Assembly: GCF_014696065.1 (NCBI RefSeq)
Contig: NZ_JACJPL010000026.1
Location: 124,001-188,000 of the forward strand
Source: Leptolyngbya sp. FACHB-261
GTDB lineage: Bacteria > Cyanobacteriota > Cyanobacteriia > FACHB-261
Direction of reading: 5' to 3'
Length of the DNA: 64,000 nucleotides
The notes beneath the pieces are model-generated. The model was not told the origin of the DNA. It ran no database searches and saw only the letters and a list, made by a program, of their open reading frames with translations. Numbering within the stretch: position 1 is the first letter of the stretch; each line of letters begins with the position of its first letter. This document shows positions 41,260 to 57,155 of this stretch, piece by piece. Made by a program: the position numbers and the translations under genes.

Positions 41260-41345
41260 AACTAACATTCCTGGTCAGTGGTTGCCAGTCACTCTGTAAC
41301 TTAACTGACAGTCTCTATCAACCCACTGCACCAGGTTTGTTAGCT
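41260..41345 (-). other. attC-like site 1
   Basis: Ends AACTAAC (41260-41266) and GTTAGCT (41339-41345). Inside them CCTGGT-CAGTGG pairs with CCACTGCACCAGG except for one extrahelical G, and TTG/CAA extends the stem with another. It lies 19 bp after the stop of the 82-aa gene. Among the best-paired sites in the window. Confidence 0.65.
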
Positions 41346-41364
41346 GAAAAACATAGCCATGAAC

Positions 41365-41613
41365 TTAATAAAGGCTAGAGGACTCTAATGCTCGTAGTAA
41401 GGATTTGACAAATCTTTCGCCGAATACACTCGATAGTGACCCGCACAGTATAATCAGCAATGATGCAATTCCTATATTAGGCAAATTCAATTCTGTAGAT
41501 GATAACGAGTAAGGAATGATCACCATAAAAGCACCAAGAGCAGATCCTCCCAAAAATCGGTAGATAGCGGTAGTGGCAGAACGCTGTTTGAGATCGGTAT
41601 CTTCAGAAGCCAT
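41365..41613 (-). CDS. Small two-TM membrane protein, 82 aa
   Basis: Starts MASEDTDLKQRSATTAIYRF. TM1 is about residues 21-41 (GGSALGAFMVIIPYSL) and TM2 about 48-66 (IGIASLLIILCGSLSSVFG); it ends FVKSLLRALESSSLY. AAAGAGAG lies before the ATG. No family recognised. It lies between attC-like sites 1 and 2 with short leaders, the layout of a gene cassette. Confidence 0.65.
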   Translation of the reverse strand: MASEDTDLKQRSATTAIYRFLGGSALGAFMVIIPYSLSSTELNLPNIGIASLLIILCGSLSSVFGERFVKSLLRALESSSLY

Positions 41614-41666
41614 ACAAACTCTCTTTTAACTCGCTAGTAACTCAATATTCACACACTAACATAGAG

Positions 41667-41755
41667 GTCTAACTGATTGGCTCATCGGCGACAAGGCAAC
41701 CTTCGATGAAGCCTGTAGGCTCTAATGTGCTGTCTGACACAGCCGCATGTTGGGT
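41667..41755 (-). other. attC-like site 2
   Basis: GTCTAAC (41667-41673) and GTTGGGT (41749-41755): on the minus strand these read ACCCAAC and GTTAGAC, both exact to RYYYAAC/GTTRRRY. GGCT...TC is shared by the inner halves, weaker pairing than site 1. Lies 11 bp after the GNAT stop at 41767 and 54 bp before the 82-aa gene's start. Confidence 0.55.
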
Positions 41756-41766
41756 GGCATTATGGG

Positions 41767-42294
41767 TCAGGTCGGAGGATAACCATCCCGGCTGATCTGC
41801 CAACGCCATAGCTTGCCTTCTTCAGGGTCATCAATTTCGGCAATGAATGTCATTCCCACTTTCTGCAAGACTCTATTCGAGGCGTTTCTCTCAGCCAAGG
41901 TATGAGCCATGACAACTTGCACCGCCTCGTGAGCGAAAGCGCAATCGATCAGTTGCTGTGCTGCCTCCGTTGCAAATCCGCGATTCCAATATTCGGAAGC
42001 AATTTCATATCCTATTTCTACAGTGCCTGACTCATCAGGCGGGCCTTTGAAACCTCCATTGCCAACAAGCATTCCCTCTTCTGGGTGAATAAAGAAGTAT
42101 CCATGCCACTCTCTGAGATCTGGGCTAGATTCGCGAGCTTCGTCGGCAGGGAGGGAAAATGCTTCTGGAAAGTGAGGCCAGCTCTTGGGCACAGTGACCT
42201 GTAACATTTCTGCAAGCTCGCTCTTGCTGCGCAGGAGTGCTTCGATGTGAATTCGTTCGACGATGAGCAATTGAAGATTGTTGATCTTGACCAT
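41767..42294 (-). CDS. GNAT acetyltransferase, RimJ/RimL type, 175 aa
   Basis: Typical of GNATs that acetylate protein or small-molecule amines: VGNGGFKGPPDESGTVEIGYEIASEYWNRGFATEAAQQL (acetyl-CoA loop, RGFATEA), AHTLAERNASNRVLQKVGMTFI. The first ATG is used. Soluble, about normal length. Followed at its 3' end by attC-like site 2. Substrate unknown. Confidence 0.88.
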   Translation of the reverse strand: MVKINNLQLLIVERIHIEALLRSKSELAEMLQVTVPKSWPHFPEAFSLPADEARESSPDLREWHGYFFIHPEEGMLVGNGGFKGPPDESGTVEIGYEIASEYWNRGFATEAAQQLIDCAFAHEAVQVVMAHTLAERNASNRVLQKVGMTFIAEIDDPEEGKLWRWQISRDGYPPT

Positions 42295-42836
42295 GTTCCT
42301 GTTTTATTGATCAATTTCTCATGGCAAACGGCTCTCAGCTCGAGATAAGCTGACCAATTTCAAATCAGCTAGTACATAACTTTGGACTAAGCCTTTTAGG
42401 GTAATGTGTATTGGGGTTGGCTCATGCTCCAATCTTAAATTTCCGCCGCGAATTCATTAGACCTGTTCTACAGACAGTTCACCTGTTCTGGCTCAGTCGT
42501 TGCCTACAAGCTGCTCCTGCCCCTTGGCTAGCCTCCTCTGTAACGCTCAAGTTCTGATCTGTCCGCAACATATTAGAGAGAAGGCTTCTGTATAGTATGC
42601 AGCTTCAGGTGGATAGGCAAAATGCTTTAGCCTGTTTCCGGTGCGATGCAGTTGCCCACGAGCTGCGGCGATGCTTATGAGGTGAACGGGCAACTAAACA
42701 AAACCGGCGCTGTTGAACTTGCAACCTCTTGAACTTAGTTTCCAACAGATAATTTCTAAATTATGTTCCTAACGATAACCTGAGCCCATTCACAGTCTGC
42801 GTGTTTCGGTCAAGATTTTATAATCCATCAAGCACT
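42295..42836. other. Intergenic region of about 540 bp
   Basis: No gene seen. Holds GTTGCCC (42651-42657) / GGGCAAC (42688-42694), a perfect 7-bp inverted repeat with the wrong polarity for attC, and a weak pair TCCTAAC 42767 / GTTCAAC 42848 spaced like an attC but without inner pairing. Confidence 0.3.
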
Positions 42837-43589
42837 TTAACTTCCCCGTTCAACTCGCAAGACAGTTTTGATGGTCTCGGTAAGACGTTTCTCGAACTCT
42901 TGTATCCCTCGTGGAGTATATGAATATTGGATATAACGCATGTGTTTTATATCAAACGGTACATCATCATTATTTTGGGTGATTAGGATAACGGGTTTTC
43001 CAATCACGTGTCCAAGCCCAATCTCATAGAAAACGTTTGGATTGCGCTCTGTGCAGTCTGCAATTATCACTTTCGCTGAACAAATAGCACCCCAGACATC
43101 CAACATGACAGAATGGGCAGTCGAGAAGTCATCTCCACGCGCAATACTCAAATTCAAATCCGCCGCCACTTTTACAATGTGGTCATCATATAGAGGCTTC
43201 ATTTCCGGTTTAAATGGCATTAAGACAAATATATCAGCGCTGCTAATGGACTTATTCGGTAATCCAAAATAAGGTTTCACAATCATGGACTTGTTGGGAT
43301 CTAGCTTAGATACTTGTGTCAAGCTAATTCCAAGCGCGTTCTGAATCTTTTCCCATTGTTTTGAAACTTTAATCTTGCCAATTGCTGGGTGACCCCAACG
43401 ATCTCCTTCTTCAGCTGTAAACTCTATAAGGCCAGCTTCTCGAAGTTCATCAAGAGTATGACGGAGGATCCCATGTGCGGTGTGATATTCATGAGGCTGT
43501 AATCTACATTGAATACATAAGCTTGTCCAGTCGTTTGCAATTCCATTGCGTAGTAGAAGAAGGATTGTGCTGCCCTGAAAGCGATTCAT
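42837..43589 (-). CDS. Winged-helix plus TIR-like / nucleoside-deoxyribosyltransferase-like protein, 250 aa
   Basis: N-terminal 90 residues look like a winged helix (GILRHTLDELREAGLIEFTAEEGDRWGHPAIGKIKVSK). The C-terminal domain reads ADIFVLMPFKPEMKPLYDDHI, SAKVIIADCTERNPNVFYEIGLGHVIGKPVILITQ, VPFDIKHMRYIQY. This is the nucleotide-binding fold of 2-deoxyribosyltransferase/TIR-like (STIR-like) proteins, with Asp and Glu at the usual sites (ADC...NPNVFYEIG). Relatives are often found near defence genes and may cleave or bind NAD-type nucleotides; this is inference. Single gene in the candidate cassette array. Confidence 0.75.
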   Translation of the reverse strand: MNRFQGSTILLLLRNGIANDWTSLCIQCRLQPHEYHTAHGILRHTLDELREAGLIEFTAEEGDRWGHPAIGKIKVSKQWEKIQNALGISLTQVSKLDPNKSMIVKPYFGLPNKSISSADIFVLMPFKPEMKPLYDDHIVKVAADLNLSIARGDDFSTAHSVMLDVWGAICSAKVIIADCTERNPNVFYEIGLGHVIGKPVILITQNNDDVPFDIKHMRYIQYSYTPRGIQEFEKRLTETIKTVLRVERGS

Positions 43590-44191
43590 CTATACTTGCC
43601 TTTAAAATGATTGGCTGCCTTGGAGTTGCGGTTCAAGACTACTGTTAAGCTAGCCCTTAGATTGCTCCTCTTAGTAATTCTCTCCTATTTCACAACCTCT
43701 CGAATGCCATGATTACTTGCTTCTGGAACTCGATAGCAAAGTTGTCATCCCTAAACCAATATATACACTACCTGCAAAGTAGCGCTGTTTCTTTAAGAAA
43801 CGGCGCTTTCCTCGTAACCAATGCCAGCCCAGCTAGCCAACCGTACCTTGGTGTTGTTGGGTAACTCTTTCGTTTACAGCACGGCGTGAAAGCTTTAGCT
43901 AGCCTACGAGATGTGGCATGCAGCGGGCCGCAACAAGTGCTACGAGAGCACCAGGCGGGCTTGCTAGCACCCGAATATCGACTAATCTAGCCTCGTTCAA
44001 AAGTGTCTCGACCTAGCTAGGAGCCAGCAGACAGCTACCCCCAGAACACCGCTCGTAGTCGGGCAAGAGCTGTAGTCACTGGATCAGTGCCGGGATTAGC
44101 CATTCGAAGTTGTTCAGAAAGTACATCAATCTACCTGAAAGTCTGCCTTGAAAGACTTTTAGGGATTTTACCAGTCAACGTAACCTAATCA
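43590..44191. other. Gene-free stretch of about 600 bp upstream of the TIR-like gene
   Basis: No frame longer than about 60 codons looks real. Near 43617-43640, GCCTTGG-AGTTGCGGTTCAAG resembles attC-like site 3 (GCCTAAC-GGTTGCGTTCAG) but no partner end is found. A hairpin lies at 43781-43807 and a GTTGGGT box at 43856-43862. It could be one or more empty or decayed cassettes. Confidence 0.3.
43781..43807. terminator. Hairpin with 13-bp arms
   Basis: AGCGCTGTTTCTT (43781-43793) pairs with AAGAAACGGCGCT (43795-43807) at 12 of 13 positions plus a G-U pair, with a one-base spacer, so the practical loop is TTTAA. It lies 190 bp upstream of the TIR-like gene. Terminator or structured RNA. Confidence 0.5.
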
Positions 44192-44277
44192 GCCTAACGG
44201 TTGCGTTCAGCGGTGACTATGTGTCCTGGCCACAACCTTGAGACTTCAATCAGTCCGCTGCAAAGCAGTCGTTCGAC
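44192..44277 (-). other. attC-like site 3, overlapping the S41 protease 3' end
   Basis: GCCTAAC (44192-44198) and GTTCGAC (44271-44277). Inner box GGTTGC-GTT-CAGCGG pairs with CCGCTGCAAAGCAGTCG allowing extrahelical bases. The protease stop (44246) lies inside, as is common for cassette genes. The right end has one mismatch to GTTRRRY. Confidence 0.55.
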
Positions 44278-45586
44278 CACGTATAGTTGCTGCTGGAGAA
44301 TTTCCCTCTGTTCGCATAATTAACTGTTCAATTGCGTGGCGATATTGAATATCTGACCAAGAAGCAAACACGATTGTTGAATCCAACAATGGAGAATTTT
44401 CCATGTCTACGCGCACGTTTGGGATGATACCAGAACCAAGAATTGGATGACCGCTTGGTGTTCTCACTTGTCCAGTTGTCACAGCAACGACAGCCCCATC
44501 CGCAAGCGGCAAGAAGTTGTGCACTATCCCTTTGCCAAACGTCGGTGTTCCCACAACCGTAGCTCGTTTAGCCTCTAGAAGCGCGCCAGCCAGAAACTCG
44601 GCTGCGCTGGCTGTTCCTTCATTGACAAGCACCACCAATGGCTTATCTGTCAACTGTAGCCCTATGGAACGAAGTTCGGTTGTGCCGCTTCGCTCGACTG
44701 ATATACCGATGGTACTCTCTCCTAAGAAGAATCCTGCAATTTCCTGAAGCGCAGATACAGAACCACCGGGATTGTTGCGCAAATCTAGCACAAAGCCATC
44801 AGCATTTTGGATGTGTTCAAGTGCTGTTTTCAATTGCTGAGGAGATGATGCTGTGAACTGATTGAGAATAATGTACCCAACTTGTCGTCCTTGCCAAACT
44901 GCTTCCAACCTTGCCTTAACTGCTGGGATGGGCGTAATCTCTCTACGGCTCAATATGACATCAAAGACTGAATTGTTCCGTTGAATAGTTAACTGCACCG
45001 TCGAACCTGCGCTACCTCGCAGCCTCATTGCCGCATCGCCTAAATCCATCCCATGCGTTGAGATGCCATTGATCCTAAGGACACGATCATTAGGACGCAA
45101 TCCAGCCTCAGCAGCGGGAGTATTAGGGGCAGGGGTTACCACTGTTAGTTTTCGAGTTTGTTCGTCAATGTCAAGTGATAACAACTCAGGCAATCCCACT
45201 CCAATATGAGGCTGACCTGTAACCTCCCGTTCAAACCCTGCAAATTGTTGAGGCGTTAAGAGGCGGGTTGCCGGGTCGTTAAGCTGACCAAGTATCGCTC
45301 GAATGGCTGCGTAGGCATCTTCTGATGAGGTGTAACGATGGGATTGTATTGCCTCACGAATCTGCTGCCAATTTAGCCCACTAAAATTTGGGTCGACGTA
45401 ATTCTCATCAATAATCTGCCACGCCCGCTCCACCCACTGTTGAAGGCGGCTCGAAGGTGAACTTGTGATTTTTTCCCTTGCGTTAGAAGCTTTGCCTGGT
45501 GGCACGTTCGCGAGCGCGGGTGTGCAAATGCTGAGGAGTGATGTAGCCGTGGCAATCAGAGCACTGTAGACGAGAAACGAATTCAT
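44246..45586 (-). CDS. Carboxy-terminal processing peptidase, S41 family, 446 aa
   Basis: Signal peptide (MNSFLVYSALIATATSLLSI, cleavage near ALA), an N-terminal helical domain (QWVERAWQIIDENYVDPNFSGLNWQ), a PDZ domain (IGVGLPELL...GLRPNDRVLRINGISTHGMDLGDA) and the S41 core. Catalytic Ser is in NEGTASAAEFLAGALLEAKRA and Lys in GTPTFGKGIV, the Ser-Lys dyad. CtpA in cyanobacteria trims the D1 protein; cyanobacteria carry several paralogues, so this copy need not be that one. Start chosen at ATG 45586 with AAGGAG upstream. Its 3' end overlaps attC-like site 3, so this copy may be cassette cargo. Confidence 0.9.
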   Translation of the reverse strand: MNSFLVYSALIATATSLLSICTPALANVPPGKASNAREKITSSPSSRLQQWVERAWQIIDENYVDPNFSGLNWQQIREAIQSHRYTSSEDAYAAIRAILGQLNDPATRLLTPQQFAGFEREVTGQPHIGVGLPELLSLDIDEQTRKLTVVTPAPNTPAAEAGLRPNDRVLRINGISTHGMDLGDAAMRLRGSAGSTVQLTIQRNNSVFDVILSRREITPIPAVKARLEAVWQGRQVGYIILNQFTASSPQQLKTALEHIQNADGFVLDLRNNPGGSVSALQEIAGFFLGESTIGISVERSGTTELRSIGLQLTDKPLVVLVNEGTASAAEFLAGALLEAKRATVVGTPTFGKGIVHNFLPLADGAVVAVTTGQVRTPSGHPILGSGIIPNVRVDMENSPLLDSTIVFASWSDIQYRHAIEQLIMRTEGNSPAATIRGRTTALQRTD

Positions 45587-45729
45587 GTGTCTCCTTGCAA
45601 TGTCAGCCTGAATCACTATTTGAAGTTTACACCAAGCTTACTTATATCTCGGTCTGACAATAACCTGATTTGAGTACTTCCTCATCGAAGTTCAATAATT
45701 TATTATGCTGAATAGGTATGTTAGTAAAC

Positions 45730-46164
45730 TTACACGTTGAAATGAATAAGGGTTACGCGCATTGCGATGAACGACACTGTGAGTGTAGCAAATAGATAGA
45801 GGTAGAACCGAAGCATGACGAAATTGGATGCGCAATGGACAACGCTATGCAATGCACAAAACGCAACAAAGACCCACGCGGCGTTTACATACATTACGTC
45901 TACCTGCTTCATGATAGAGACATATGAGACAAGTGCATAGAAAAGCACCGGAATCTCGAACAGATTCTTTAGGCTGTCCAAGGGATTGGATACATTTGGT
46001 AGCGATATTTGCGCCAGTTTTCCAGGTGCAGCGAGGTCTTTCGGGTGGAGCTTTCTACTTGTGATGAAACTGATATGACGGATGTATATGTACACCCAGA
46101 CCAGGAGTTTCAGAAACACTGTTGCAAAAAAAGGACTGAAGATTGCATCTTGCGCCACTATCAC
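45730..46164 (-). CDS. MAPEG-family membrane protein, 144 aa
   Basis: Four TM segments. The family signature is visible: NVSNPLDSLKNLFEIPVLFYALVSYV, then VAFCALHSVVHCASNFVMLRFYLY. MAPEG proteins are membrane-bound glutathione or eicosanoid enzymes; bacterial roles are mostly unknown. A GTTAGTA box (45720-45726) sits right after the stop, as in the attC-like sites, but pairing with the left half is poor. MAPEG genes are frequent cassette cargo. Confidence 0.82.
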   Translation of the reverse strand: MIVAQDAIFSPFFATVFLKLLVWVYIYIRHISFITSRKLHPKDLAAPGKLAQISLPNVSNPLDSLKNLFEIPVLFYALVSYVSIMKQVDVMYVNAAWVFVAFCALHSVVHCASNFVMLRFYLYLFATLTVSFIAMRVTLIHFNV

Positions 46165-46641
46165 CTCTCACGCTTGAGCGTTCTGATAGTTGATGGGCAA
46201 ATAAATTGCACTACACGGCAAGCCTTGAGGAAACATAGAATAACGCGAAATCATAAAGTAAGTGACCCCAATCATTAACAACCGGGCAATCAATTGGATG
46301 TTAAAGACTGCCGAAGTTGCATAAAGGCTCATCTCTAGGGACCGGATGGGAGCTACTCGCTATCAATTTCCGGGTCGATGGTTATGTCAATTTGTTATTG
46401 AGCTCAAAGTTAATATAGACTGAGCGCTTCAATTTTTCTAGAGCTCGATCGGGTAGACTTCAGTCAACTTCCCCTACAAAAAATCTCCTGAAGCTTCTTT
46501 CTGAAGCCATCGACCAAGCCCGTCTTCATTCCGAACATTGCCATATGATGGTGGGACGAGCACAAATTGCAATCAATGACTGGTGTGGTGGGTTACAGGT
46601 GTAGTGGGTTGCACTTGTGAAAAGTCAATGCCTACCTTCAA

Positions 46642-46666
46642 CACACAAATCGGTCAGATTTGTGTG
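46642..46666. repeat. Perfect 10-bp inverted repeat, 5-nt loop
   Basis: CACACAAATC (46642-46651) and GATTTGTGTG (46657-46666) around GGTCA. It could be an operator for a dimeric regulator or a hairpin; no promoter elements were identified. Confidence 0.5.
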
Positions 46667-46692
46667 CCGTCTGTCTGCACTTATCTGTTTAG

Positions 46693-46714
46693 GCTGCGAT
46701 GCTGCAATCGCAGC
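46693..46714 (-). terminator. Hairpin downstream of the GNAT gene at 46768
   Basis: GCTGCGAT (46693-46700) and ATCGCAGC (46707-46714) form a perfect 8-bp stem, loop GCTGCA, 54 bp after the GNAT stop. No U tract, so only a probable transcript end. Confidence 0.4.
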
Positions 46715-46767
46715 ACCAACCCTTTAGAACTGATCGCTTAACGCTTCTAGCTACAACGGCTTCGGTG

Positions 46768-47271
46768 TCAGTGCTCAGAGAGGCTACGTCCAGCCCACTG
46801 CTCCTGAGGTGTCAGTGCCTTGCGATAAACGATCTTGTCATCGCCTGCACTGTAGAAGTCGCGGATCCGCGCTTCCTCGTCGTAACCGCACTTGCGGTAG
46901 AATGCCCGCGTGCGCTCGAAGCCCGGTAACCCTGACGTTTCCACCAGCAGCATGCGCCCGCCCCGCGCAGCCAACGTTTGTTCAACGTAGCGCAGCAGTG
47001 TCCCACCGCGTCCTTGTCCCTGGCGGTCGGGTCGGATGGCGATCAATTGCAGGTTCCACGTCTGATCGGTCATCCGTTCCGGCTCGCAGTAGGCGACCCC
47101 CACCGGTCCGTCGTCGTCGTCAGTGATCCAGAAATGATCACTGTTGCTGTCGCTACCGAAGTAATCGGCCAGCATTTCGCTCAGCTCCTCAAGCTCATTC
47201 GGCTGAAAGCCAATCACGTCTGCTATGGCGAGCAGCGCGGCGGTGTCATCGGGCGTAGTCGGTCGAATCAT
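46768..47271 (-). CDS. GNAT acetyltransferase, 167 aa
   Basis: GNAT fold: MIRPTTPDDTAALLAIADVIGF, the acetyl-CoA loop IRPDRQGQGRGGTLLRYVEQ, and FERTRAFYRKCGYDEEARI. Full length, soluble. The DNA is clearly richer in G and C than adjacent genes (for example the stretch 46960-47110), pointing to a different origin. Same strand as two further GNAT genes but separated by 59 bp and more, so probably independent units. Substrate unknown. Confidence 0.87.
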   Translation of the reverse strand: MIRPTTPDDTAALLAIADVIGFQPNELEELSEMLADYFGSDSNSDHFWITDDDDGPVGVAYCEPERMTDQTWNLQLIAIRPDRQGQGRGGTLLRYVEQTLAARGGRMLLVETSGLPGFERTRAFYRKCGYDEEARIRDFYSAGDDKIVYRKALTPQEQWAGRSLSEH

Positions 47272-47330
47272 AGAGAACTCTGTGTAAGTGTAAAAGCAGT
47301 AGCAGGAGATCTCGAAGGTGCCATCCGCAC

Positions 47331-47810
47331 CTATAGCTTCTTGAAGTACCTAGCGATTGGAAGCAGCCCGAAGCCTAGCTTTTCATAGGTGCGACGTGCT
47401 GGAGCATGACCGGGGTCGCCTCCAGTCTCTACCATCGCAACAGACATCCCAGCGTCTTTCATCCAATCAAGAGTGAATTCTATAAGAGCGCTGCCAATAC
47501 CCTGACCTTGGAAGTCTGGGTCGACGGCGACCATGTAGATTTCACCCATGCTGGACTCGGAATCTAGTTTCACGGCTACAAAGCCCACAGTTGAACCTGC
47601 ATCGATAGCAACCCATACATTCGTGTCTTCCCCAGCACAAACATCCTCGACAGCTTTTTGCTGGCTCACACGCCAATTATCGGGATAGAATGCCTGGTAC
47701 ACATCAGCGTCCATCGCGTTTTGAATCGAATCAAAGACCGGACCCCATGCCCGAAGCGAAAGACGAATAACGGCATCAAGTTGGTGGGGGGTGTATGGTT
47801 CAATGTGCAT
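47331..47810 (-). CDS. GNAT acetyltransferase, 159 aa
   Basis: Reads MHIEPYTPHQLDAVIRLSLRAW, FVAVKLDSESSMGEIYMVAVDPDFQGQGIGSALIEFTLDWM (acetyl-CoA loop QGQGIGSA) and DPGHAPARRTYEKLGF. This last block is usual for GNATs with a GDPGHAPAR motif. Full length, start at first ATG. A short 6-bp hairpin AGGTGC/GCACCT lies near its 3' end (about 47317-47333). Confidence 0.88.
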   Translation of the reverse strand: MHIEPYTPHQLDAVIRLSLRAWGPVFDSIQNAMDADVYQAFYPDNWRVSQQKAVEDVCAGEDTNVWVAIDAGSTVGFVAVKLDSESSMGEIYMVAVDPDFQGQGIGSALIEFTLDWMKDAGMSVAMVETGGDPGHAPARRTYEKLGFGLLPIARYFKKL

Positions 47811-47855
47811 TTTGTATAGACTCCAAAAGACGCGAGGTTCCTAGGTGCTCAAGCT

Positions 47856-47944
47856 GCCTAAGGTTGCTTGTCACCCACTGCAGATAACCTCAGACGCTTA
47901 GTCAGCAAGCTCTTAGTAGTCGGTGTGCATTGGCATTGTTATGT
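47856..47944 (-). other. attC-like site 4 (degenerate)
   Basis: GCCTAAG (47856-47862) and GTTATGT (47938-47944), spacing 89 bp. The left half GCCTAAGGTTGC resembles site 3 (GCCTAACGGTTGC). TGC and CACC blocks pair. Located 19 bp after the GNAT stop at 47964. Core boxes deviate from consensus, so confidence is low. Confidence 0.35.
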
Positions 47945-47963
47945 CTTGCAACACACAGAATTC

Positions 47964-48515
47964 TTAAATGGGACGCTCCCAACGTTCGCCGTACTGTCGA
48001 TATCCAACCCGCTTGAACGTAGAAATCATCCGCACATTGTTGACATCTGTGTCACAAAATATTCGCCAAACTCCGATATCTTGTAACATTCGTGTTCCTT
48101 GCAACAACAGATCGTTTGCAAAACCCAATCCTCGGTACTCTGGCACAACTCCGATATCGTAGATAGTTGCTTCTTCTAAATCTTCTTTGGCACAGTTTTT
48201 AAAGATGACAGGAAGCACAAATCCTACAACGTCCCCGCTCTCGTTAATCCCAAACTGCCACCAGCTATCTTGATACGAGAAGTCATCGCTTGCCGAGCTC
48301 AAATATCTTTCAACTGCTTGGTGAGGCTCGGGTTCTGAAACTTTCCTCTGATGACTTGGATTCATTGACGAAGCCCAAACACGGACAACGATTGAGATCA
48401 GTTGGTTGCCATGCATTGCATTGACAGGTTTGAAGGTTAACCGCTGTGGAACTTCAATCAGCGGTCTATGCTCTTCCCAAACAAAAGGCACTTTTAGATA
48501 GGTCTGCTGATTCAT
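47964..48515 (-). CDS. GNAT acetyltransferase, about 183 aa
   Basis: Start chosen at ATG 48515 (MNQQTYLKVPFVWEEHRPLIE); the frame is open upstream but that part does not look protein-like. GNAT core: WWQFGINESGDVVGFVLPVIF, ATIYDIGVVPEYRGLGFANDLLLQGTRML (acetyl-CoA loop YRGLGFA), DTDVNNVRMISTFKRVGY. Third GNAT in a row on this strand and fourth within 7 kb. Its codon use is AT-richer than the GNAT at 46768, so these are not recent duplicates. Confidence 0.85.
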   Translation of the reverse strand: MNQQTYLKVPFVWEEHRPLIEVPQRLTFKPVNAMHGNQLISIVVRVWASSMNPSHQRKVSEPEPHQAVERYLSSASDDFSYQDSWWQFGINESGDVVGFVLPVIFKNCAKEDLEEATIYDIGVVPEYRGLGFANDLLLQGTRMLQDIGVWRIFCDTDVNNVRMISTFKRVGYRQYGERWERPI

Positions 48516-48629: not shown

Positions 48630-48727
48630 GACCAACCAGCGACATAGTGGCTCAAGTCAGCCCCTGCAGTAACCTCGAACCTAACTGCAGGGGCTGACGA
48701 AAGTCTGCTGCATTTAAATGGTTAGAC
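48630..48727 (-). other. attC-like site 5 with a perfect 15-bp inner stem
   Basis: GACCAAC (48630-48636) and GTTAGAC (48721-48727) flank a perfect 15-bp inverted repeat: 48656-48670 and 48684-48698, starting GTCAGCCCCTGCAGT, loop 13 nt. The right box overlaps the HxlR stop codon. The left box has one mismatch. The inner stem may alternatively be a terminator for the HxlR gene. Confidence 0.45.
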
Positions 48728-49105: not shown

Positions 49106-49121
49106 TAAAGTACCGTACCTA

Positions 49122-49141: not shown

Positions 49142-49204
49142 AAGAACTTGCGGCATCTTTTACGCTCTAAATCACAACAAGCGCAAAGAATTAGGGAGAA
49201 GAAG

Positions 49205-49963
49205 ATGAGCCTGAACGATAAAGTTGTGCTGATTACAGGAGGGGGTACTGGTATTGGTGCAGATGCTGCCCATGCTTTCCATGCTGCTGGAGCTAAAGTT
49301 GTTCTTAACGGACGGCGCCAAGATAAGTTGTCGCAAACAGCCGCAAAAATAGACCCATCTGGCGAAAGTGTTGCTTATTTAGCTGGTGATATTGGACGCC
49401 TGGAAACAAGCCAAAACTTGATGGAACTTGCAGTTGAACGATTTGGTGGTGTAGATATACTATTCAATAATGCAGGTGTATTTCAACCAAAAGCGTTTCT
49501 TGACCATACAGAGCAAGATCTCAACGGTTACTTGAATCTGCTGCGGGGATACTTTTTCACGTCACAAGCTGCCATTCCAGAAATACGTAAGCGGGGTGGT
49601 GGAGCTATTGTAAACCTCGGTTCGATGTGGGCATTACATGCGATCGCCGCAACTCCATGTAGTGGCTCCTCAGCCGCTAAAGGCGCTGTGCATGCGCTCA
49701 CACGCAACTTAGCGATCGAGTTTGCACCAGAGAATATTCGTGTCAACGCCATTGCACCAGCTGTGGTTGAAACACCTCTTTTTGATTCTCTGCTAACGCC
49801 TGAGCAACTCGCTTCTTTTAATGCCTTTCACCCATTGGGGCGTAATGGGCAACCTAAAGATATCACGGAAGCAGTTTTGTTTTTGGCAGATGATTCACGT
49901 TCTGGTTGGATTACAGGAATCGTTTTACCTGTAGACGGCGGTGTAACCACAGGACGCAACTAA
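49205..49963 (+). CDS. SDR-family oxidoreductase lacking the usual catalytic Tyr, 252 aa
   Basis: Starts at ATG 49205 with AGGGAG six bases upstream. Rossmann motif TGGGTGIGADAA, NNAG in ILFNNAGVF, Ser in NLGSMWAL, and the C-terminal DDSRSGWITGIVLPVDGGV. Where classical SDRs have Tyr-x3-Lys, this reads SGSSAAKGAV, with Ser at the Tyr place, so normal hydride-transfer catalysis is doubtful or the residue is supplied otherwise. Divergent from an HxlR regulator. It is on the plus strand, unlike most genes here. Confidence 0.85.
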   Translation: MSLNDKVVLITGGGTGIGADAAHAFHAAGAKVVLNGRRQDKLSQTAAKIDPSGESVAYLAGDIGRLETSQNLMELAVERFGGVDILFNNAGVFQPKAFLDHTEQDLNGYLNLLRGYFFTSQAAIPEIRKRGGGAIVNLGSMWALHAIAATPCSGSSAAKGAVHALTRNLAIEFAPENIRVNAIAPAVVETPLFDSLLTPEQLASFNAFHPLGRNGQPKDITEAVLFLADDSRSGWITGIVLPVDGGVTTGRN

Positions 49964-50447
49964 TTTAAGTCAGTCTCCCTTGGTAGTGGAGTATTTTCTA
50001 AAACCATATTTCCACTACCTGACCAACCTTGTCGAAACACTATCTCAACCAATAATCTAAAGCCGTCTAACCTTCCTGCCCACCGTCTGCCACGGTCTTT
50101 GTTACAACATTAGTAGCTTGCAACAATTCAGTGCAGCATGATGTTAGCTATCAAAAGAGCATTTAGTGTTTTGGCGGATAGAATGCCACTCAACCAAAAT
50201 CTTCCAGTTTTAGAGGTTTTAACAACTTTTTTAAAGAGACGATGAATCCTTGTAAAGATCAAGTGTGAAGATGAAGAATAAGCAATATTTGAGGTATTGA
50301 TTGTGATAGAAGCTTCTAAACTTTAGAGGCAGTAGTTCTAATCGCCCAAACTATCACCTAGCTTAAATTCGTTGATGTTTGAACAATGTTTTTTGAGAAG
50401 ATCGTTCGTCTCCACAACTCCTGTTACAAGTATTGCGGCGCAAACCC
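49964..50447. other. Intergenic region of about 480 bp, nothing recognised
   Basis: AT-rich, between the SDR and the HEAT-repeat lipoprotein, both on the plus strand. No gene, attC-like site or strong hairpin seen. It presumably holds the promoter of the lipoprotein gene. Confidence 0.3.
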
Positions 50448-51545
50448 ATGGTAATCAAATGGCTATACGGATTTGTTTCTGCCTCTAACCTCCTTCGTTG
50501 TCTTGTTTTACTATCTCTACTGTTATTCAGCAGTAGTTGTCTGTTTGAGTCTATTGAACGTAAAGGAGATAGAGGAGACTGTTCAGATGTTACTAATGGG
50601 ATATCTGAGCAAGATCTCTATTCCTTGGGATCTGAAGAAGTAAATATTGATAATCTAAAAGCTTCTCTAAAGAGTTGGAATAGTGCAACTCGCTATCAAG
50701 CTCTTTGGGTTCTGATTTTTAAAACAGAGCCACACACAATATTAACTACCCTCATGACAGCGGTTCAAGATGAAGATCCGAGGGTACGAGAAACTAGCAT
50801 TAAAGGACTGGCTACGGCAGCTGAATCTCAAGCAACACTAATCCCTCAAATTTTTCCCATCTTAACTCAAGCAATGCGGGATAGAGATCCAGGAGTACGT
50901 GTAGCTGGTTTTAGCGGACTAACTACAGTTGCCCTACATCAAAAGACATTAATTCCTCGTGTCCTCCCTTTGTTCACGAATGGATTGAAGGATCGAAGCG
51001 CTTGCGTCCGTGCCAGCTCTGCATCATTTCTCGAAAGTCTTATCCGGGAGTCAGGACCTTATAAGAGCGAGTTAGAATTAGTTATTCCAGATTTGATTGT
51101 AATGGCGTCAAGAGATTCAAGTGCTTGGGCACGTAGGCATGCTCTAGATGGTTTGGGCTCAGCAAATGTAGCTTCAGAAGAAATAGTTCCTATACTAATT
51201 ACGGTTTTGAAGAGTGATCCAGATGCAACTCTTCGTAACGTATCGGCTACTGCATTGGGTCAGAAGGTAGCAGAACCAGAGGCTACTAAAGCGCTAATTG
51301 AAGCCATTAGCGACCAAGATGCAAGAGTTCGTACTTCGGCAGTATACAGTTTGCTGAAAATAGAACCAAACCCATTGATTAACCAAAGTAATTTGGAGAA
51401 GTTGTCTGACCAAGGATTAAAAACGGCTATCTGGGCTCTGGAGAGATGGTCAAAAGGCCCAGATGTGGAGAATTGGAAAAAAACTGCTATCCCACCCATC
51501 CTCAATGCTTTAATTGCTGAAAGAAGTTCACGCTTACAAAAATAA
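50448..51545 (+). CDS. HEAT-repeat lipoprotein, about 365 aa
   Basis: Signal sequence with lipobox LFSSSC (cysteine about residue 31 from ATG 50448), so an anchored lipoprotein. The rest is HEAT/PBS-lyase-type helical repeats: MTAVQDEDPRVRETSIKGLAT, TQAMRDRDPGVRVAGFSGLTT, TNGLKDRSACVRASSASFLES, VMASRDSSAWARRHALDGLGS, VLKSDPDATLRNVSATALGQ, AISDQDARVRTSAVYSLLK. Such repeats form a protein-binding solenoid; the partner is unknown. Two upstream starts are possible, but only ATG 50448 gives a normal signal peptide length. Confidence 0.82.
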   Translation: MVIKWLYGFVSASNLLRCLVLLSLLLFSSSCLFESIERKGDRGDCSDVTNGISEQDLYSLGSEEVNIDNLKASLKSWNSATRYQALWVLIFKTEPHTILTTLMTAVQDEDPRVRETSIKGLATAAESQATLIPQIFPILTQAMRDRDPGVRVAGFSGLTTVALHQKTLIPRVLPLFTNGLKDRSACVRASSASFLESLIRESGPYKSELELVIPDLIVMASRDSSAWARRHALDGLGSANVASEEIVPILITVLKSDPDATLRNVSATALGQKVAEPEATKALIEAISDQDARVRTSAVYSLLKIEPNPLINQSNLEKLSDQGLKTAIWALERWSKGPDVENWKKTAIPPILNALIAERSSRLQK

Positions 51546-51709
51546 CGCTGTTTCTGATTTAGGGGCTAATGCTCGTGTTAAGGGGTGTAGTTAACATTCA
51601 TAACCCCGACCAGCGTTTTTTTAGTCCAAGTGCATGTGCTTTTTAGGCTGTGCCATGACTCTATCCAGAGTTTACCTTGGCGCACTCATTCTTCGTTGCT
51701 TCTAAGGCG

Positions 51710-52552
51710 CTAACGAGTTTTGGTCGCCTGTAGGACAGTTGACACATAGTCGAGCACAAATCCCGGCTCCGCTTCTTCAATCTGAACTCTACTCATCGGC
51801 ATAAATTCTTTAAATATCGGCTCAATAGAAGAACTCGACGCAAATATAAAGCCATCGAAAGAAGTTGTGCCGCAATCGAAATCAGACGATACTTCAACTG
51901 TATAACCAAAACCCTCAAGCCGTTCCACAACATCTAAATGCAATTGTTGGGAATGGGTTGAGATAAAGAGATAGTCTATTTTTTTATTTGTCAATGAATT
52001 AGAGCAGCCCTCCAACATCTCCACTTCATATCCTTGGATATCAGAATGAAGGATGTCGATTTTCTGTATACTTCTTTCTGCTAAATATTTATCAACCTCA
52101 AACTGGTCGTTACCGACAAATGCCTGAATGAATTCGCCAGTGAACCCATTCAGCTCAAAATTATGTTTTCCTACGTTTAGATTCTGTGGTTCTGGCTCCA
52201 CCAGATGAACTTTTGCATTGGGATAGGTTTTCTTCAGCCACATTGAGTAGTGTCCCCAGTAGGCACCCAGTTCAACCATCAGGGGCGAGGTTTGGAGGTG
52301 ATTTAATACTTCTTGAAATACAAATTCCTCTAGGGGTTCATGAACTCCGCGATTTATGCAGAGAATCGAACTGAACTCATCATAGTAGGCGTAAGGACCA
52401 GAGATTGGCACCTTCAACCCGTTGTGAAGATAAACATCATTGCCTTCCACAAAGCCAGCACGAGGATCCCTTCGGATAGCAAGGTTAAGTGGGTCTGAGA
52501 CAATTTCTCTAAATCGTCCTGTGAAGTCCTCAGCGATAGCTTTTTGTCCCAT
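51710..52552 (-). CDS. FkbM-family methyltransferase, 280 aa
   Basis: SAM-binding motif LMVELGAYWGHYSMWLKK, acidic VHLVEPEPQNLNVGKHNFELNG, and IDILHSDIQGYEVEMLEG with DYLFISTHSQQLHLDVVERLEGFGY are the FkbM pattern. Such enzymes O-methylate sugars or other small molecules. It starts 54 bp after the end of attC-like site 6, the layout of a cassette gene with a short leader. No clear attC is found at its own 3' end. Confidence 0.85.
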   Translation of the reverse strand: MGQKAIAEDFTGRFREIVSDPLNLAIRRDPRAGFVEGNDVYLHNGLKVPISGPYAYYDEFSSILCINRGVHEPLEEFVFQEVLNHLQTSPLMVELGAYWGHYSMWLKKTYPNAKVHLVEPEPQNLNVGKHNFELNGFTGEFIQAFVGNDQFEVDKYLAERSIQKIDILHSDIQGYEVEMLEGCSNSLTNKKIDYLFISTHSQQLHLDVVERLEGFGYTVEVSSDFDCGTTSFDGFIFASSSSIEPIFKEFMPMSRVQIEEAEPGFVLDYVSTVLQATKTR

Positions 52553-52605
52553 CTGTCTTAACCTCTGGTAAACCGAGCGATTGACTACAATTTGAAGTTA
52601 TAGCA

Positions 52606-52691
52606 GTCTAACGGTTAAGTTGAGCCGACGCAAATAACAGCCAAACCCCAGTCCACAACTTCGCGGTGTTCGGCTTCAACAACAGCTAGCT
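52606..52691 (-). other. attC-like site 6
   Basis: GTCTAAC (52606-52612) with partner GCTAGCT (52685-52691), one base off GTTAGCT as seen in site 1. The inner boxes GTTGAGCCGA (52619-52628) and TCGGCTTCAAC (52670-52680) pair over 10 bp with a single extrahelical base, the classic attC L-box arrangement. It precedes the FkbM gene by 54 bp. Confidence 0.65.
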
Positions 52692-52967
52692 CCCACCGCG
52701 ATTTTCTGAGGGAGCTACGCCACCCGTGTCACGACGACATCATGGGCTATGCTGCTCTCAATGCCTGTGCTCCCATCAGGCCCGTCAGCTGCCGGTGAGA
52801 TGTGTCCGTTCTCGCTGAATTTGCCACGAGACGCTTCAGATCTAGGAATGGTTCGAATTTTTGTGAATTGTCCGTGGTCATGTTGAGTCACTGTTCAGAT
52901 TCTCTCATGCCTTGATGGTTCCGGTGCAAGGCATTGTTGGGCGTGCTAGCTGTACACTGCCCTTTCC

Positions 52968-53681
52968 TTAGAATGGGTCGAGCATTGCCACAATATCAAT
53001 GTCTCTGATACAGCTCTCTCTTGAAATTTTAATGATGCATTCCATAACCGTAACTAAATCTTGTGGAGCTATTACTCCGTCATATCCCTCAACCGGCTCA
53101 ACCTCCATCTTGTCTTGGTGGAATCGAATTGTGCCGAATGTTCCAGGATTAAGCAATGTGATACCAGTTTTTTCCTGACGTAATCCCTGTTTGAGGGCGT
53201 TGACAACCCCTCGTAGACCAAACTTTGAAGCAGCATAAGCAACTGCTTGACCACTTACGTAATCATGGCTGTTCGCTGAACCCACTAGGATAATTTTGGG
53301 GTTCTGCGACAGCCTTAAGTTTGGCAATAGGGCTTTAATGCAAGAAATTGCAGTGACTAGATTGATCGTCAATATCCTTTCGTTCTCTTCATCTGTAACA
53401 TCTTCAAATTTGTACTGTTCTGTAAACGCGAGTGTTTCCCAGATTCCAGCGTTGTAGATAGCAGTATCAAGTTCTTCTGCTGCGATCGCACTTGATACAA
53501 CTTGGCTCGCACCCTTCTTCGCTAAATCAGTTTCTATCCAAATCCGCTCGATTTGATCTTCAAGATGCAATGTAGGTTTTGCCCTAGAGACAAGCCACAC
53601 CTTATCACCTGATTCTGGAACGAAGCGATGAAAGACTTCGCCCAAACCCCAGCTGGCACCAAAAATAACAAAACGGTTCAT
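52968..53681 (-). CDS. SDR-family oxidoreductase, 237 aa
   Basis: Rossmann motif MNRFVIFGASWGLGEVF, YNAG in TAIYNAGIW, Ser in ILVGSANSHDY, and YAASK as Tyr-x3-Lys. The nucleotide loop is unusual (GASWGLGE), and the C-terminus (YDGVIAPQDLVTVMECIIKISRES) resembles the short clan of atypical SDRs. Substrate unknown. A degenerate attC-like half-site (GGTTGCGGTCAAG near 53794-53806) lies upstream. Confidence 0.85.
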   Translation of the reverse strand: MNRFVIFGASWGLGEVFHRFVPESGDKVWLVSRAKPTLHLEDQIERIWIETDLAKKGASQVVSSAIAAEELDTAIYNAGIWETLAFTEQYKFEDVTDEENERILTINLVTAISCIKALLPNLRLSQNPKIILVGSANSHDYVSGQAVAYAASKFGLRGVVNALKQGLRQEKTGITLLNPGTFGTIRFHQDKMEVEPVEGYDGVIAPQDLVTVMECIIKISRESCIRDIDIVAMLDPF

Positions 53682-53832
53682 CTTCTATCAAGAACCTTGA
53701 AGCATTGTCTGATCAACAACCTCATGGTAGCTTGAGTCTAAACCTACGCAGATAATCTTTCAATACCGTCTCCATTAGTGTGAAACAGCTTGGGGTTGCG
53801 GTCAAGCGGCTGTAAGCAACCTTTCTTCTACA

Positions 53833-54554
53833 TTAGGGGCCTAAGGTTTTATAGGCTATTACAAAGAACATTGTGACATCATTCCAATAACCTTCTGTGG
53901 TTGAAGCTTGATTGATTTGTGTGAGGTATTCCTGTTTACATCGTTCCAGCTGTTCTTCTGACCATTTTGCACCCTGAAGGCCAAATGCACTGTTGGCATT
54001 GCCTACCCAAACACGTTCTGCATCTTGTAAGTAGAAGCCAAATTGTTCGGTTTTGATTTTGCTCTCTTCAAATCCAACCATTTTTAAGATTTGGTGGCAT
54101 CTCCCAGGTGTTCCAAGTAATTTATTAGGATTTGGGATAGTAACCCCGTATTTTTGTGCCACTGCTCGAGATAAGACAGACGCGGATGGGGAGCTTTCAG
54201 CAAGGCAGGAAAAGGCAACGACTCCCCCCGGTTTCAAAGCCTTGTGCCATCGACGGAGTGCTGTCGAAATATCTATCAAGTAAACAATTGCCGATGAACA
54301 AAGGATGGCCTCAAACTGGCTCTCCTGCAATTCTTTCTCATCTGCATCTGCTTGCTCAGATGTTTGTCAATCCTAAAGTCTCAATCTTCTGCTGAGCTTG
54401 CTGCAACATCTAGAACTTGCTGACCTGGCTGTAATTTCGCCAACTCTACTAACCGAGTTGCAGCCTGTCTGTGAAACTCGTTCTCATAATTTGGGCAGTT
54501 GTTGAAGTCATTGAGAACCTGCTGTTTGTAAGCACTAGATGAGGAGTCAATCAT
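53833..54554 (-). pseudogene. Broken class I SAM methyltransferase
   Basis: From ATG 54554 the frame reads MIDSSSSAYKQQVLNDFNNC, then LVELAKLQPGQQVLDVA, the start of the SAM motif. There the glycine-rich loop and following strand are missing: the next sequence, in another frame, is QAQQKIETLGLTNI, then another shift to EQADADEKELQESQFEAILCSSAIVYLIDISTALRRWHKALKPGG. The remaining open part (53833-54330) is 165 codons. The loss of the SAM-binding loop and at least two frame changes make it non-functional. The C-terminal half is well preserved. Confidence 0.85.
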
Positions 54555-54618
54555 ATTGAGCTACTGATCTGGCTCCCTCTATTGTGCTGTCGATAGTTGA
54601 TCCTTGACCAAAGTTCCG

Positions 54619-54707
54619 TCGTAACACAACTTGAACCCAAACCCTCACAGACGAGCCTCAAATCTTGCTCCTAGCGAGAACTTGTGGCATAACGGTCGTC
54701 GTTATGT
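54619..54707 (-). other. attC-like site 7 (degenerate)
   Basis: TCGTAAC (54619-54625) and GTTATGT (54701-54707), 89 bp apart; the right box overlaps the stop codon of the next methyltransferase gene and is the same as in site 4. Inner pairing is weak. GTAACACAACTTGAACCC here resembles GTAGAACAAGTTGAACCC at 55547, suggesting a shared ancestor. Confidence 0.35.
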
Positions 54708-55451
54708 GGCACCACGGCGACCCACGACGATCGGTTGGGGAAGGATTCCGTTCAAGCGTTGGACATCTGTAAAGCCTACCTCTCTAAAAAGAGACATCAG
54801 CCGCTCAATTGTAATCGTATAGTAACGAGATAAACCAGCAGTAACCCTAGCAGGAGTGCCTTCTCTTATCTCCTGTACAAAATACATGGCAACGTCGTAA
54901 GTATCGTGACTCCAATCACGAGTTTGATACACGAAGTAGCGATCGCTCCCGTCGTAGCGGAACCCATATGGCCACATCTGTGGGGAGGATCTATCCTCAT
55001 CCTCAAGGTACTCGCGGAGGTTCACGACAGCCACTCCATTTTGCCTCAAGCACTTGTAGAAACCTCGGAGCGCAACTCGGATCTCATCTTCGCTAGAGAG
55101 ATGTGGTAGGGAGTTGTCAGCGGTTAATACCACATCAAATCCAGAGCCATGAGTTTCGGCACAGTGCCGCATGTCTGCCACTTTAAACGTAATGTTGAGT
55201 CCGCGTGTTACCGCTTCTTTTTGCGCTCGGTTAACGGCTGCTGCCGCTAGATCAGATGCCGTAACAGTGTGTCCGAGCGTGGCGAGTCCCAGTGCCTGTG
55301 TTCCAATCCCGCATGAAACATCAAGGATCAATAGTGGTGCTGAACCCACCCAATTACTAAGGACACTGTTCAGAGCGGAGCCCTGCGTTTCGATGGCTTC
55401 GTTCCAGTTGGGATAAATCAGGTGATAAAGACTAGCAATATCGTCGTACAT
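54702..55451 (-). CDS. Class I SAM-dependent methyltransferase, about 249 aa
   Basis: Begins MYDDIASLYHLIYPNWNEAIETQG, then ILDVSCGIGTQALGLATLGHTVTASDLAAAAVNRAQKEAVTRGLNITFKVADMR. This order is familiar from glycine/sarcosine-type methyltransferases and their relatives. The acidic VVLTADNSLPHLSSEDE region is the motif post-II. Start taken at ATG 55451; an upstream in-frame ATG would add 15 residues. Glycine betaine synthesis is possible but not supported by context. Attached to attC-like site 7. Confidence 0.85.
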   Translation of the reverse strand: MYDDIASLYHLIYPNWNEAIETQGSALNSVLSNWVGSAPLLILDVSCGIGTQALGLATLGHTVTASDLAAAAVNRAQKEAVTRGLNITFKVADMRHCAETHGSGFDVVLTADNSLPHLSSEDEIRVALRGFYKCLRQNGVAVVNLREYLEDEDRSSPQMWPYGFRYDGSDRYFVYQTRDWSHDTYDVAMYFVQEIREGTPARVTAGLSRYYTITIERLMSLFREVGFTDVQRLNGILPQPIVVGRRGAT

Positions 55452-55629
55452 ATCAATATTGGCGACGTGTGAACTAGAAACCGTGACGAAGACCAATTCA
55501 TGTTGCTGGCCTGCGGCCTGTGGAACTACTACTTGGAGTTAACGAGGTAGAACAAGTTGAACCCATGCAATTTAGAGATCCACTCAATAATTCCCTACGA
55601 TTTCGCAACTTCTCTAGTAGATATAGATG

Positions 55630-56121
55630 CTAAGGATATTCAATTAAAACAGGACCTTCTGGAAGGAATCGACCTCGATAGTTAGTTTTCTTATCCTTGC
55701 CACACAGGTTTCCCATCGGAATCGGCTTCTTGAGCGGCTCTAACTCTTGCACCTCCCAAAACACTGCCCAGTTTGGGGTGTCGGTAGCGGTTGATTTAGG
55801 GCGATAAATTGATTTACCTGGATAGCGACCTCGACGAGAACCGACATAGCCCACGTACAATCCCCGCCAGGTTACCTCTGGGTTTAAGGGTTGATCCCCT
55901 TTGGCATGAGAGGCATAGATGAAAACCTCGATTGCCTTTCCATCTCGCAGCTTTTCGACTTCACCAAAGAGTTCAAACGCCATGCTGCCAAAAGCCACTT
56001 TTGGCAGATGATCGGGCGGTAGCTCGTCAGAGTCAAGCTGGGCGGCAATCGCCTCCAAGCCAGAGATCAGGTGCATCTCTGGGACGGGAGCAAGAATTGC
56101 GAAGGCGTGAGTTTTTTGCAT
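55630..56121 (-). CDS. Hypothetical protein, 163 aa
   Basis: Soluble protein. Notable stretches: LPKVAFGSMAFELFGEVEKLRDGKAIEVFIYASHAKGDQ, TWRGLYVGYVGSRRGRYPGKSIYRPKSTATDTPNWAVFWEVQEL. It looks like a beta-barrel type fold; I do not recognise the family. The first ATG is used. It lies next to the helicase remnant on the same strand, and could be another defence-associated remnant, though nothing in the sequence shows this. Confidence 0.6.
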   Translation of the reverse strand: MQKTHAFAILAPVPEMHLISGLEAIAAQLDSDELPPDHLPKVAFGSMAFELFGEVEKLRDGKAIEVFIYASHAKGDQPLNPEVTWRGLYVGYVGSRRGRYPGKSIYRPKSTATDTPNWAVFWEVQELEPLKKPIPMGNLCGKDKKTNYRGRFLPEGPVLIEYP

Positions 56122-56188
56122 GAGTCTGAGTGCGTGAACAAAAAGTCAGCTTTTATAAACTACTAGGAACAGGTCAGCTTTTGGAGCA

Positions 56189-56530
56189 CTAGAAAGCAAA
56201 ACGGGTCGGCTCAACGATAGTCCGTTGCTTCAACCGCCGCACCATCACCACTTGAAGTTGCTTGCGGTCTGGTTCACCCCCCTGGCAAACCATTGAGTAT
56301 CTAGCAATTCCAGCAATGCCGTCAAGTTCCCTGGATAACCGTTATGAGGAATCGCGGTCAAAAATAGCTTGTGTTCAAAGTGGAAAACGAGTAAGCGAAT
56401 GGTGACCGTTCCCTGAGAGCCGACCTTATACTGCCCGCTGCCGGAAGGAGCCAACTTATGGGCCTCATCCACAGTCAGCAGATCAAAGCGACGGGGGTAG
56501 ATAGATAAGCCTTTACTGATTTGTTCTCAA
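56189..56530 (-). pseudogene. Remnant of a DrmD-like SNF2/DEAH helicase
   Basis: Reads SIYPRRFDLLTVDEAHKLAPSG, then VTIRLLVFHFEHKLFLTAIPHNGYPGNLTALLELLDTQWFARGV: the Walker B DEAH and motif III (TAxPHNGY) region of SNF2 helicases such as DrmD of DISARM. After RGV a G-run frameshift follows and the next frame gives EPDRKQLQVVMVRRLKQRTIVEP, ending at 56189. Only about 110 of some 1000 codons remain, and motif III has TAI in place of TAT. No other DISARM gene is seen here. Confidence 0.6.
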
Positions 56531-56585
56531 GATAGTAGAGCGTGCTTTTGCCTGGGTTGAGTGGTTTTGTGGATTTAAGCGACGG

Positions 56586-56978
56586 TTGGGTGGAGTGATT
56601 GGGGGCTTGTCTGTGTTTCTACTTATAAGTTTGTTGCGATTTATTGCTTGGGTGGGACTGGAATCAACAATGGCGACCGCCGAAATAACATCTGCGGTCG
56701 CCGAAACAGCTTTTGAGTATTCCGAAATAACATCTGCGGTCGCCGAAACAGCTTTTGAGTATTCCGAAATAACATCTGCGGTCGCCGAAACAGCTTTTGA
56801 GTATTCCGAAATAACATCTGCGACTGTGGAAATAGCTTTTGAGTACTTCGAAATAACATCTGCGACTGTGGAAATAACATTGGCGACTGCGGAAATAGCT
56901 TTTGAGTACCCGGAAATAACATCCGCGACCGTCGAAGTAATAAATACCTACGGCGATGCTCGCGGCGTGAAGGAGTAG
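56586..56978 (+). CDS. Possible membrane-anchored heptad-repeat protein, 130 aa
   Basis: Open frame from TTG 56586 (GTG 56595 also possible). A hydrophobic N-terminus GGLSVFLLISLLRFIAWVGL could be one membrane segment. It is followed by twelve 7-residue repeats (EITSAVA / ETAFEYS and variants), encoded by the 21-bp tandem repeat, and a short tail. The opposite strand (56641-57033) is also open as an Arg-rich heptad repeat (MLFRNTQ / KLFRRPQ), starting 34 bp from attC-like site 8. I cannot say which, if either, is translated. Confidence 0.35.
   Translation: MGGVIGGLSVFLLISLLRFIAWVGLESTMATAEITSAVAETAFEYSEITSAVAETAFEYSEITSAVAETAFEYSEITSATVEIAFEYFEITSATVEITLATAEIAFEYPEITSATVEVINTYGDARGVKE
56682..56933. 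repeat. 21-bp tandem repeat, 12 units in a 42-bp alternation
   Basis: Units begin at 56682, 56703, 56724 and every 21 bp to 56913. They alternate GAAATAACATCTGCGGTCGC- and GAAACAGCTTTTGAGTAT-type units; the first three 42-bp pairs are almost identical, later ones diverge. Unit length is a multiple of three, so both strands stay open. Confidence 0.9.
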
Positions 56979-57067
56979 CGCAACAAAACCTACACGGTTG
57001 AACCAGCGACATCTGCTCGAATTCAGCAGACAAGCTCTAGATTACGTCCTCACCCACAACCTGAGTA

Positions 57068-57155
57068 GCCTAACGTTGACCATTACCTGCCGCAGACAAT
57101 TTCTTATTGCCAACAGATAAACTCTCGGCGGTCAGGTGTATGGGCGTTGTTAGGC
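57068..57155 (-). other. attC-like site 8, both core boxes exact
   Basis: GCCTAAC (57068-57074) and GTTAGGC (57149-57155) are exact inverted copies and fit RYYYAAC/GTTRRRY. Inside, CCAT, ACCTG and CCGC blocks of the left half recur in the reverse complement of the right half with single-base offsets (extrahelical bases). Length 88 bp. It lies 34 bp from the minus-strand repeat frame. Confidence 0.65.

Follow-up and report, generated by a model that had tools for sequence, protein, structure and literature searches.

A probable, partly decayed remnant of a multi-platform chromosomal integron in Leptolyngbya sp. FACHB-261

We focused on a run of palindromes in a 64,000-nucleotide stretch of the Leptolyngbya sp. 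FACHB-261 genome, referred to here as the window (C26:124001-188000 of a 6.95-Mb, 36-contig assembly; C-numbers denote contigs of this genome). An initial annotation had read about eight of them as attC-like sites in an integron cassette array whose integrase is elsewhere or lost. Our results support this proposal and make it very likely that the region is a partly decayed remnant of a multi-platform chromosomal integron, similar to a cluster of attC sites lacking an integron integrase (CALIN) (PMC9024848), with no integrase in cis or, as judged from the assembly, in trans. Phycobiliprotein genes identify the host as a cyanobacterium, and the genome is the sole representative of its order in our sample of 390 species of the class Cyanobacteriia.

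Clear attC arrays with sites of 85-92 bp adjoin several intact integron integrase genes (intI) in other species of the class; at locus L053, for example, intI lies on the minus strand (10194-11138) and the attCs lie on the plus strand, from 12387 onward. We used a covariance model trained on 18 attCs beside intact integrases of other cyanobacteria, whose alignment contains compensatory changes in the attC arms. None of the training sites came from the window's genome, and the model therefore provides an independent test of the window. With filters off, it yielded eight candidates, and no more, in the interval from 41,260 to 57,155, every one on the minus strand, in agreement with the eight palindromes of the initial annotation; five have E<1e-4, one has E 0.012, and two are not significant alone. 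All nine matches with E<1 in the window are on the minus strand and inside 38.2-57.2 kb. The same search gave no match at E<=1 in control DNA totaling 302 kb, of which 100 kb flanks the array (L006-L008 and L012-L013) and 202 kb comes from elsewhere in the genome. The initial annotation would have counted a lack of covariance-model matches in the window as a refutation of the array; this check left the array standing. The sites are as follows (bits and E values from the attC model; z values from folding against shuffled sequences).

57068-57155, minus: best-scoring attC of the window (GCCTAAC...GTTAGGC), 52.9 bits, E 1.7e-9, z -3.5
52606-52691, minus: attC, 41.3 bits, E 6e-7
51564-51648, minus: possible attC, heavily decayed, 13.3 bits, E 0.83, alone not significant
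50065-50149, minus: attC, decayed, 21.7 bits, E 0.012
47856-47944, minus: attC between two GNAT genes, R' box mutated to CTTAGGC, 44.7 bits, E 1.1e-7
44192-44277, minus: attC that overlaps the S41 protease stop codon, 31.5 bits, E 8.4e-5, z -1.6
41667-41755, minus: weak attC of 89 bp (ACCCAAC...GTTAGAC), 10.4 bits, alone not significant, with gene placement as further evidence
41260-41345, minus: best-folding attC of the window, 40.6 bits, E 8.4e-7, z -4.2, matched by 0 of 200 shuffles
38736-38821, minus: attC to the left of the 41,260-57,155 interval, 27.8 bits, E 5.5e-4
38229-38324, minus: possible leftmost attC of the array, 16.2 bits, E 0.19

The array extends from 38,229 in the window to C26:219,650, i.e., 31.7 kb past the window end, with 11 further minus-strand attC matches (E<=0.21) in the part beyond the window. 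The sites at 41260, 57068, and 44192 fold better than their shuffles, and the folding results support the view that part of the array is decayed. On the bottom strand, a fold with unpaired extrahelical bases is clear at 57068 and 41260, partial at 44192, and absent at the other folded sites. The position of the sites relative to genes partly bears out the initial annotation: stop codons within 20 bp of or overlapping a site were claimed for six of the eight, and our recount on the minus strand gives five. A next gene about 34-55 bp beyond several sites was found at 47856 (46 bp to the next start, and 20 bp to the upstream stop), 41667 (54 bp, and 12 bp from the stop of a GNAT gene), and 52606 (54 bp to the start of the FkbM methyltransferase gene).

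To see how these sites join their surroundings, we compared 100 attC sites of the genome together with their flanking sequence. Eleven attCs on five contigs, including the one at 57068-57155, share a common DNA downstream, starting at the GTTRRRY box (R'). The bodies of these 11 attCs are no more alike than random attCs (mean identity, 44% versus 45%), whereas the 70 bp after R' show 77% identity (23% for random attCs), and the leaders that follow are up to 96% identical. The switch in similarity is located at the R' box, with a resolution of this 7-bp box. Integron integrases cut within R', between the G and the TT of GTTRRRY, and junctions of the cassette type thus fall, at this resolution, where the integrase cuts. 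The initial annotation had suggested comparing strains for cassette gain or loss at such boxes; the junctions we found connect different arrays within this genome and, in the case of a single cassette gene described below, are seen in other species.

The junctions also bear on the idea that the palindromes arose by chance or are ordinary intergenic hairpins, such as terminators or repeats resembling repetitive extragenic palindromes or miniature inverted-repeat transposable elements (MITEs). GTTRRRY boxes and near-palindromes are common (the box alone is uninformative, with 148 occurrences in the window against 116 expected), some sites fold poorly, and a perfect 15-bp hairpin of the ordinary kind is present at 48656-48698. 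Yet a model built from other species matches one strand only and finds nothing in the control DNA, and the attC bodies differ from each other as random attCs do, unlike MITE copies, while the DNA after R' is common. We consider this explanation refuted by the model matches, the empty controls, and the junction comparison, and its remaining probability is negligible. A search of the window against Rfam gave no match, and a simple inverted-repeat search found two repeats only, because attC arms are too interrupted for such a search.

The common DNA after the attC at 57068-57155 belongs to a unit that recurs in the genome, of which the window holds two copies, the second one preceded by a putative attC.

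56510-57067, minus: shared unit beginning exactly at the R' box, with a conserved leader and tandem repeats (blastn; leader hidden Markov model, E 1e-33)
42573-42785, minus: another copy of the leader unit, decayed and with an attI remnant at its end (leader model at 42785-42674, E 1.3e-15)
42768-42854, minus: putative decayed attC of 87 bp (GTTGAAC...GTTAGGA), no match to the attC model, proposed from the leader copy after it

Relatives of the first unit were retrieved by blastn at C26:214014-214579, C31:201667-202248, and C13:147722-147067, and elsewhere they carry a truncated antisense intI and attI. In the second copy, the leader (42674-42785) directly follows the GTTAGGA box that closes an 87-bp stretch opening with GTTGAAC, which we read as a further decayed attC missed by the model. 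The tandem repeats within the shared unit are of about 42 bp (GGAATACTCAAAAGCTGTTTCGGCGACCGCAGATGTTATTTC type) and occupy 56640-56960 in the window and 1820-2119 in L003; related ones occur in several arrays.

In the genome as a whole, attC candidates (E<=1) number at least 108, spread over 17 contigs, with scores of up to 75.7 bits. Near the array ends, we found a repeat (TTTCCGTATAACACCC...) similar to what immediately precedes intact intI genes in other species (nhmmer E of 1e-19 for L045 and 5e-19 for L039). A sequence model of this repeat, built mainly from the window's genome, matches the DNA immediately 5' of an intact intI at eight loci, all from species outside its training set (L048, L053, L056, L058, L061, L062, L064, and L066), which shows that the array-end repeat is the attI region. 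With this model, the genome has 22 attI-like sites (E<1e-8), 11 of which belonged to the training set, and all are on contigs bearing attC arrays. They represent at least two types, the site at C5:14.4 kb being unlike the rest. The sole attI trace in the window is the remnant at 42573-42630, read on the plus strand (17.9 bits, E 7e-4).

For intI itself, we searched with TIGR02249 and with a profile from a 17-sequence cyanobacterial IntI alignment; the latter was used since TIGR02249 at its default threshold matches all 14 control genomes, for which reason its weak matches were left uncounted. Neither profile found an intact intI, complete with the IntI-specific patch, in the assembly, next to the array or elsewhere. 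Only N-terminal fragments are present, at C5:14692 (residues 3-73, one stop), C26:190974+191221, 205082, and 213830, C31:183081, and C28:60628; they span at most residues 3-78, plus one piece of residues 139-170, and lie on the strand opposite to the cassettes. A search of the contig for intI, as the initial annotation had suggested, thus returned remnants located 3-26 kb past the window end, none of them intact. At least two of these (190,961-191,386 and 205,013-205,437) are 83% identical over 430 bp and by inspection have an internal deletion in common. The units holding the remnants at C26:190974 and 213830 end on one side at an attC R' box, and the latter has an attI on the opposite side. 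By analogy with the delta-attI cassettes of mobile integrons, which run from an attC to an attI and are predicted to be excisable (PMC12901181), such pseudo-intI/attI units may have moved as cassettes. They share with delta-attI cassettes the bounding attC and attI but differ in their antisense truncated intI, tandem repeats, and full-length attI-like sites.

These features are best explained by an integron integrase that built the array by site-specific recombination and was then lost. Recombination of the folded bottom strand of attC between G and TT is established integron biology, of which we see the products alone. Here, minus-strand cassettes, each with its attC, would have recombined through their bottom strand (the plus strand) with attI or another attC. 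The genome would once have held several platforms, as the 22 attI-like sites and the N-terminal pieces of intI suggest, and the sites would have been decaying since the integrase was lost; this decay would account for the graded attC scores, the long multigene intervals, and the genes in reverse orientation. The data show the identity of the attCs, the shared R' junction, the attI homology, and the absence of intact intI from the assembly; present immobility of the array and the succession of events are inferred.

Several observations weigh against this reading. Four of the nine folded sites (52606, 47856, 38736, and 51564) are no better than shuffles, three window sites are weak or alone not significant, and several attC-to-attC intervals carry between two and four genes, whereas a cassette typically holds one. 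Close Microcoleus homologues of the GNAT gene at 41767-42294 have no attC nearby; we therefore rejected the idea that every gene here is a cassette, and array genes need not all be cassette borne. Finally, with 36 contigs and a completeness of 97.7%, the assembly could lack an intact intI that the genome carries. The array might then still be working, with an integrase supplied in trans by an unassembled replicon or with another tyrosine recombinase of the genome. The incomplete assembly, the good preservation of some attCs elsewhere in the genome (up to 75.7 bits), and the leaders of up to 96% identity, which suggest some fairly recent events, favor this possibility; we nevertheless regard it as unlikely, given that two profiles found no intact intI, that each remnant is truncated, and that the window's own attCs are among the more degraded.

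The number of platforms can be questioned as well, since the arrays could be pieces of one large ancestral array, split by rearrangement and segmental duplication. The array ends are 70-90% alike in attI type, promoter, and an adjoining gene segment, and strand is consistent inside most clusters, but at least two attI types exist and a single array can contain several attI sites (C31). This origin is a real possibility, although we lean away from it as the whole explanation; both the breakup of an ancestral array and separate platforms may have acted.

The segment in question encodes two small proteins, p1 (∼118 amino acids) and p2 (∼103 amino acids). p1 is found at 12 array ends, in most of them with p2, near the attI end and in the orientation of intI; the window array's own end carries the pair at C26:221161-222148, 33 kb past the window end. 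The p1 reading frame is open in all 12 array-end copies, with a dN/dS of ∼0.09, showing strong purifying selection. Neither protein has a convincing match in Pfam or NCBIfam or any match in PADLOC, and p1 has none in the PDB. In this genome, the p1 family numbers 47 copies, with weak homologues in only 4 of 389 other species; of the 14 copies most similar to the query, 12 are array-end copies. However, 21 copies outside arrays have neither attC nor attI in the ∼5 kb flanking each side, so that the family in general is not integron specific, which weakens the view that p1-p2 is an integron gene pair as such. The p1-p2 segments start at C5:14896, C26:319203, and C20:7481; the start follows intI codon 73 in C5 and the attI/promoter region in C26 and C20 at almost the same point, which suggests a defined left end. 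The pair may derive from a multicopy element that inserted into a single platform and was then copied along with it; alternatively, it could have an integron-associated function. That p1-p2 took over the integrase slot in such a function, e.g., the control or replacement of cassette movement, with pseudo-intI/attI units spreading between arrays as cassettes, is quite improbable in our judgment.

One cassette gene links the array to other genomes.

41365-41613, minus: single-gene cassette encoding an 82-amino-acid predicted membrane protein, homologues of which are cassette genes in other cyanobacteria

Homologues occur in 69 other sampled species. At 9 of the 29 other-species loci examined, an attC lies within the 1.5-kb flanks; all 11 matches are on the strand of the gene, and the usual spacing is 74 bp ahead of its start codon or ∼90 bp past its stop codon. 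This gene family moves as an integron cassette.

Across the 390 species, attC candidates were found in 270 and TIGR02249 matches above the cutoff (intI) in 125, and in genomes assembled as one contig, e.g., G148 and G189, attCs are dispersed along the chromosome. In 40 genomes searched with a more sensitive setting of the attC model (E<=1e-4), counts range from 11 to 111. The window's genome has 68, the highest among the 20 genomes chosen for having no listed intI match; its count is high, yet not unique. Integrons have been reported in the phylum before (PMC8618304, PMC8352920, and PMC2426708), including a list of cyanobacterial integrons (PMC8618304) and an attC model (PMC8352920), and the array itself is an ordinary kind of object. 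It shares with those integrons the attC length of 85-92 bp, the TIGR02249-type intI, and the attI architecture but differs in that no intact intI is present in the assembly. Pseudogenes make up about a third of intI genes (PMC2426708). Compared with a CALIN, the region likewise has several one-strand attCs, varied cassettes, and no intI within reach, but within the array and next to it, attI-like sites and truncated pieces of intI persist, making the integrase loss visible. With the sedentary chromosomal integrons of the Vibrio and Xanthomonas type it shares a large chromosomal cassette set, attI, and divergent intI remnants, and it differs in having many arrays and attI sites over 17 contigs, not one platform, and no intact intI. 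New here are the pseudo-intI/attI units with cassette-like junctions inside arrays and the selectively constrained p1-p2 pair at the intI position and orientation at 12 array ends. A literature search, which covered few subscription journals, found no paper devoted to cyanobacterial integrons.

To our knowledge, integron research has dealt almost entirely with Proteobacteria, and with the species counts given above, often with dispersed sites, cyanobacteria look like a large, little-used integron reservoir. This genome shows what remains after recombinase loss, namely, ∼100 cassette sites, ∼20 attI-like sites, and pseudo-intI/attI units, so that the origin of CALINs by integrase loss, off-target insertion, or rearrangement becomes testable in one genome. 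The genome-wide picture and the p1-p2 module set the array apart from ordinary CALIN-like remnants.

The cargo is as varied as the initial annotation had stated, with profile searches recovering four GNAT genes, S41, HxlR, FkbM and other methyltransferases, MAPEG, and TMEM175. Individual cargo genes include the following.

41767-42294, minus: GNAT acetyltransferase (Pfam PF13302)
42837-43589, minus: protein with a C-terminal TIR-like domain (PADLOC TIR effector profile, E 5e-7; no Pfam match)
44246-45616, minus: S41 peptidase with PDZ domain (Pfam PF03572, E 7e-43)
47331-47810, minus: GNAT acetyltransferase (Pfam PF00583)
51710-52552, minus: FkbM-type methyltransferase (Pfam PF05050)

The TIR-like-domain gene is possibly a defense gene within the cargo. 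Most genes share the minus strand of the window's attCs; two run against the array direction on the plus strand, an SDR gene (49148-49963) and a gene for a HEAT-repeat protein (50433-51545), which are likely not cassette genes or have been inverted. The hairpin at 48656-48698 (GTCAGCCCCTGCAGT/ACTGCAGGGGCTGAC), with GTTAGGT at 48679-48685, directly follows the HxlR gene and looks like a terminator-type structure rather than an attC.

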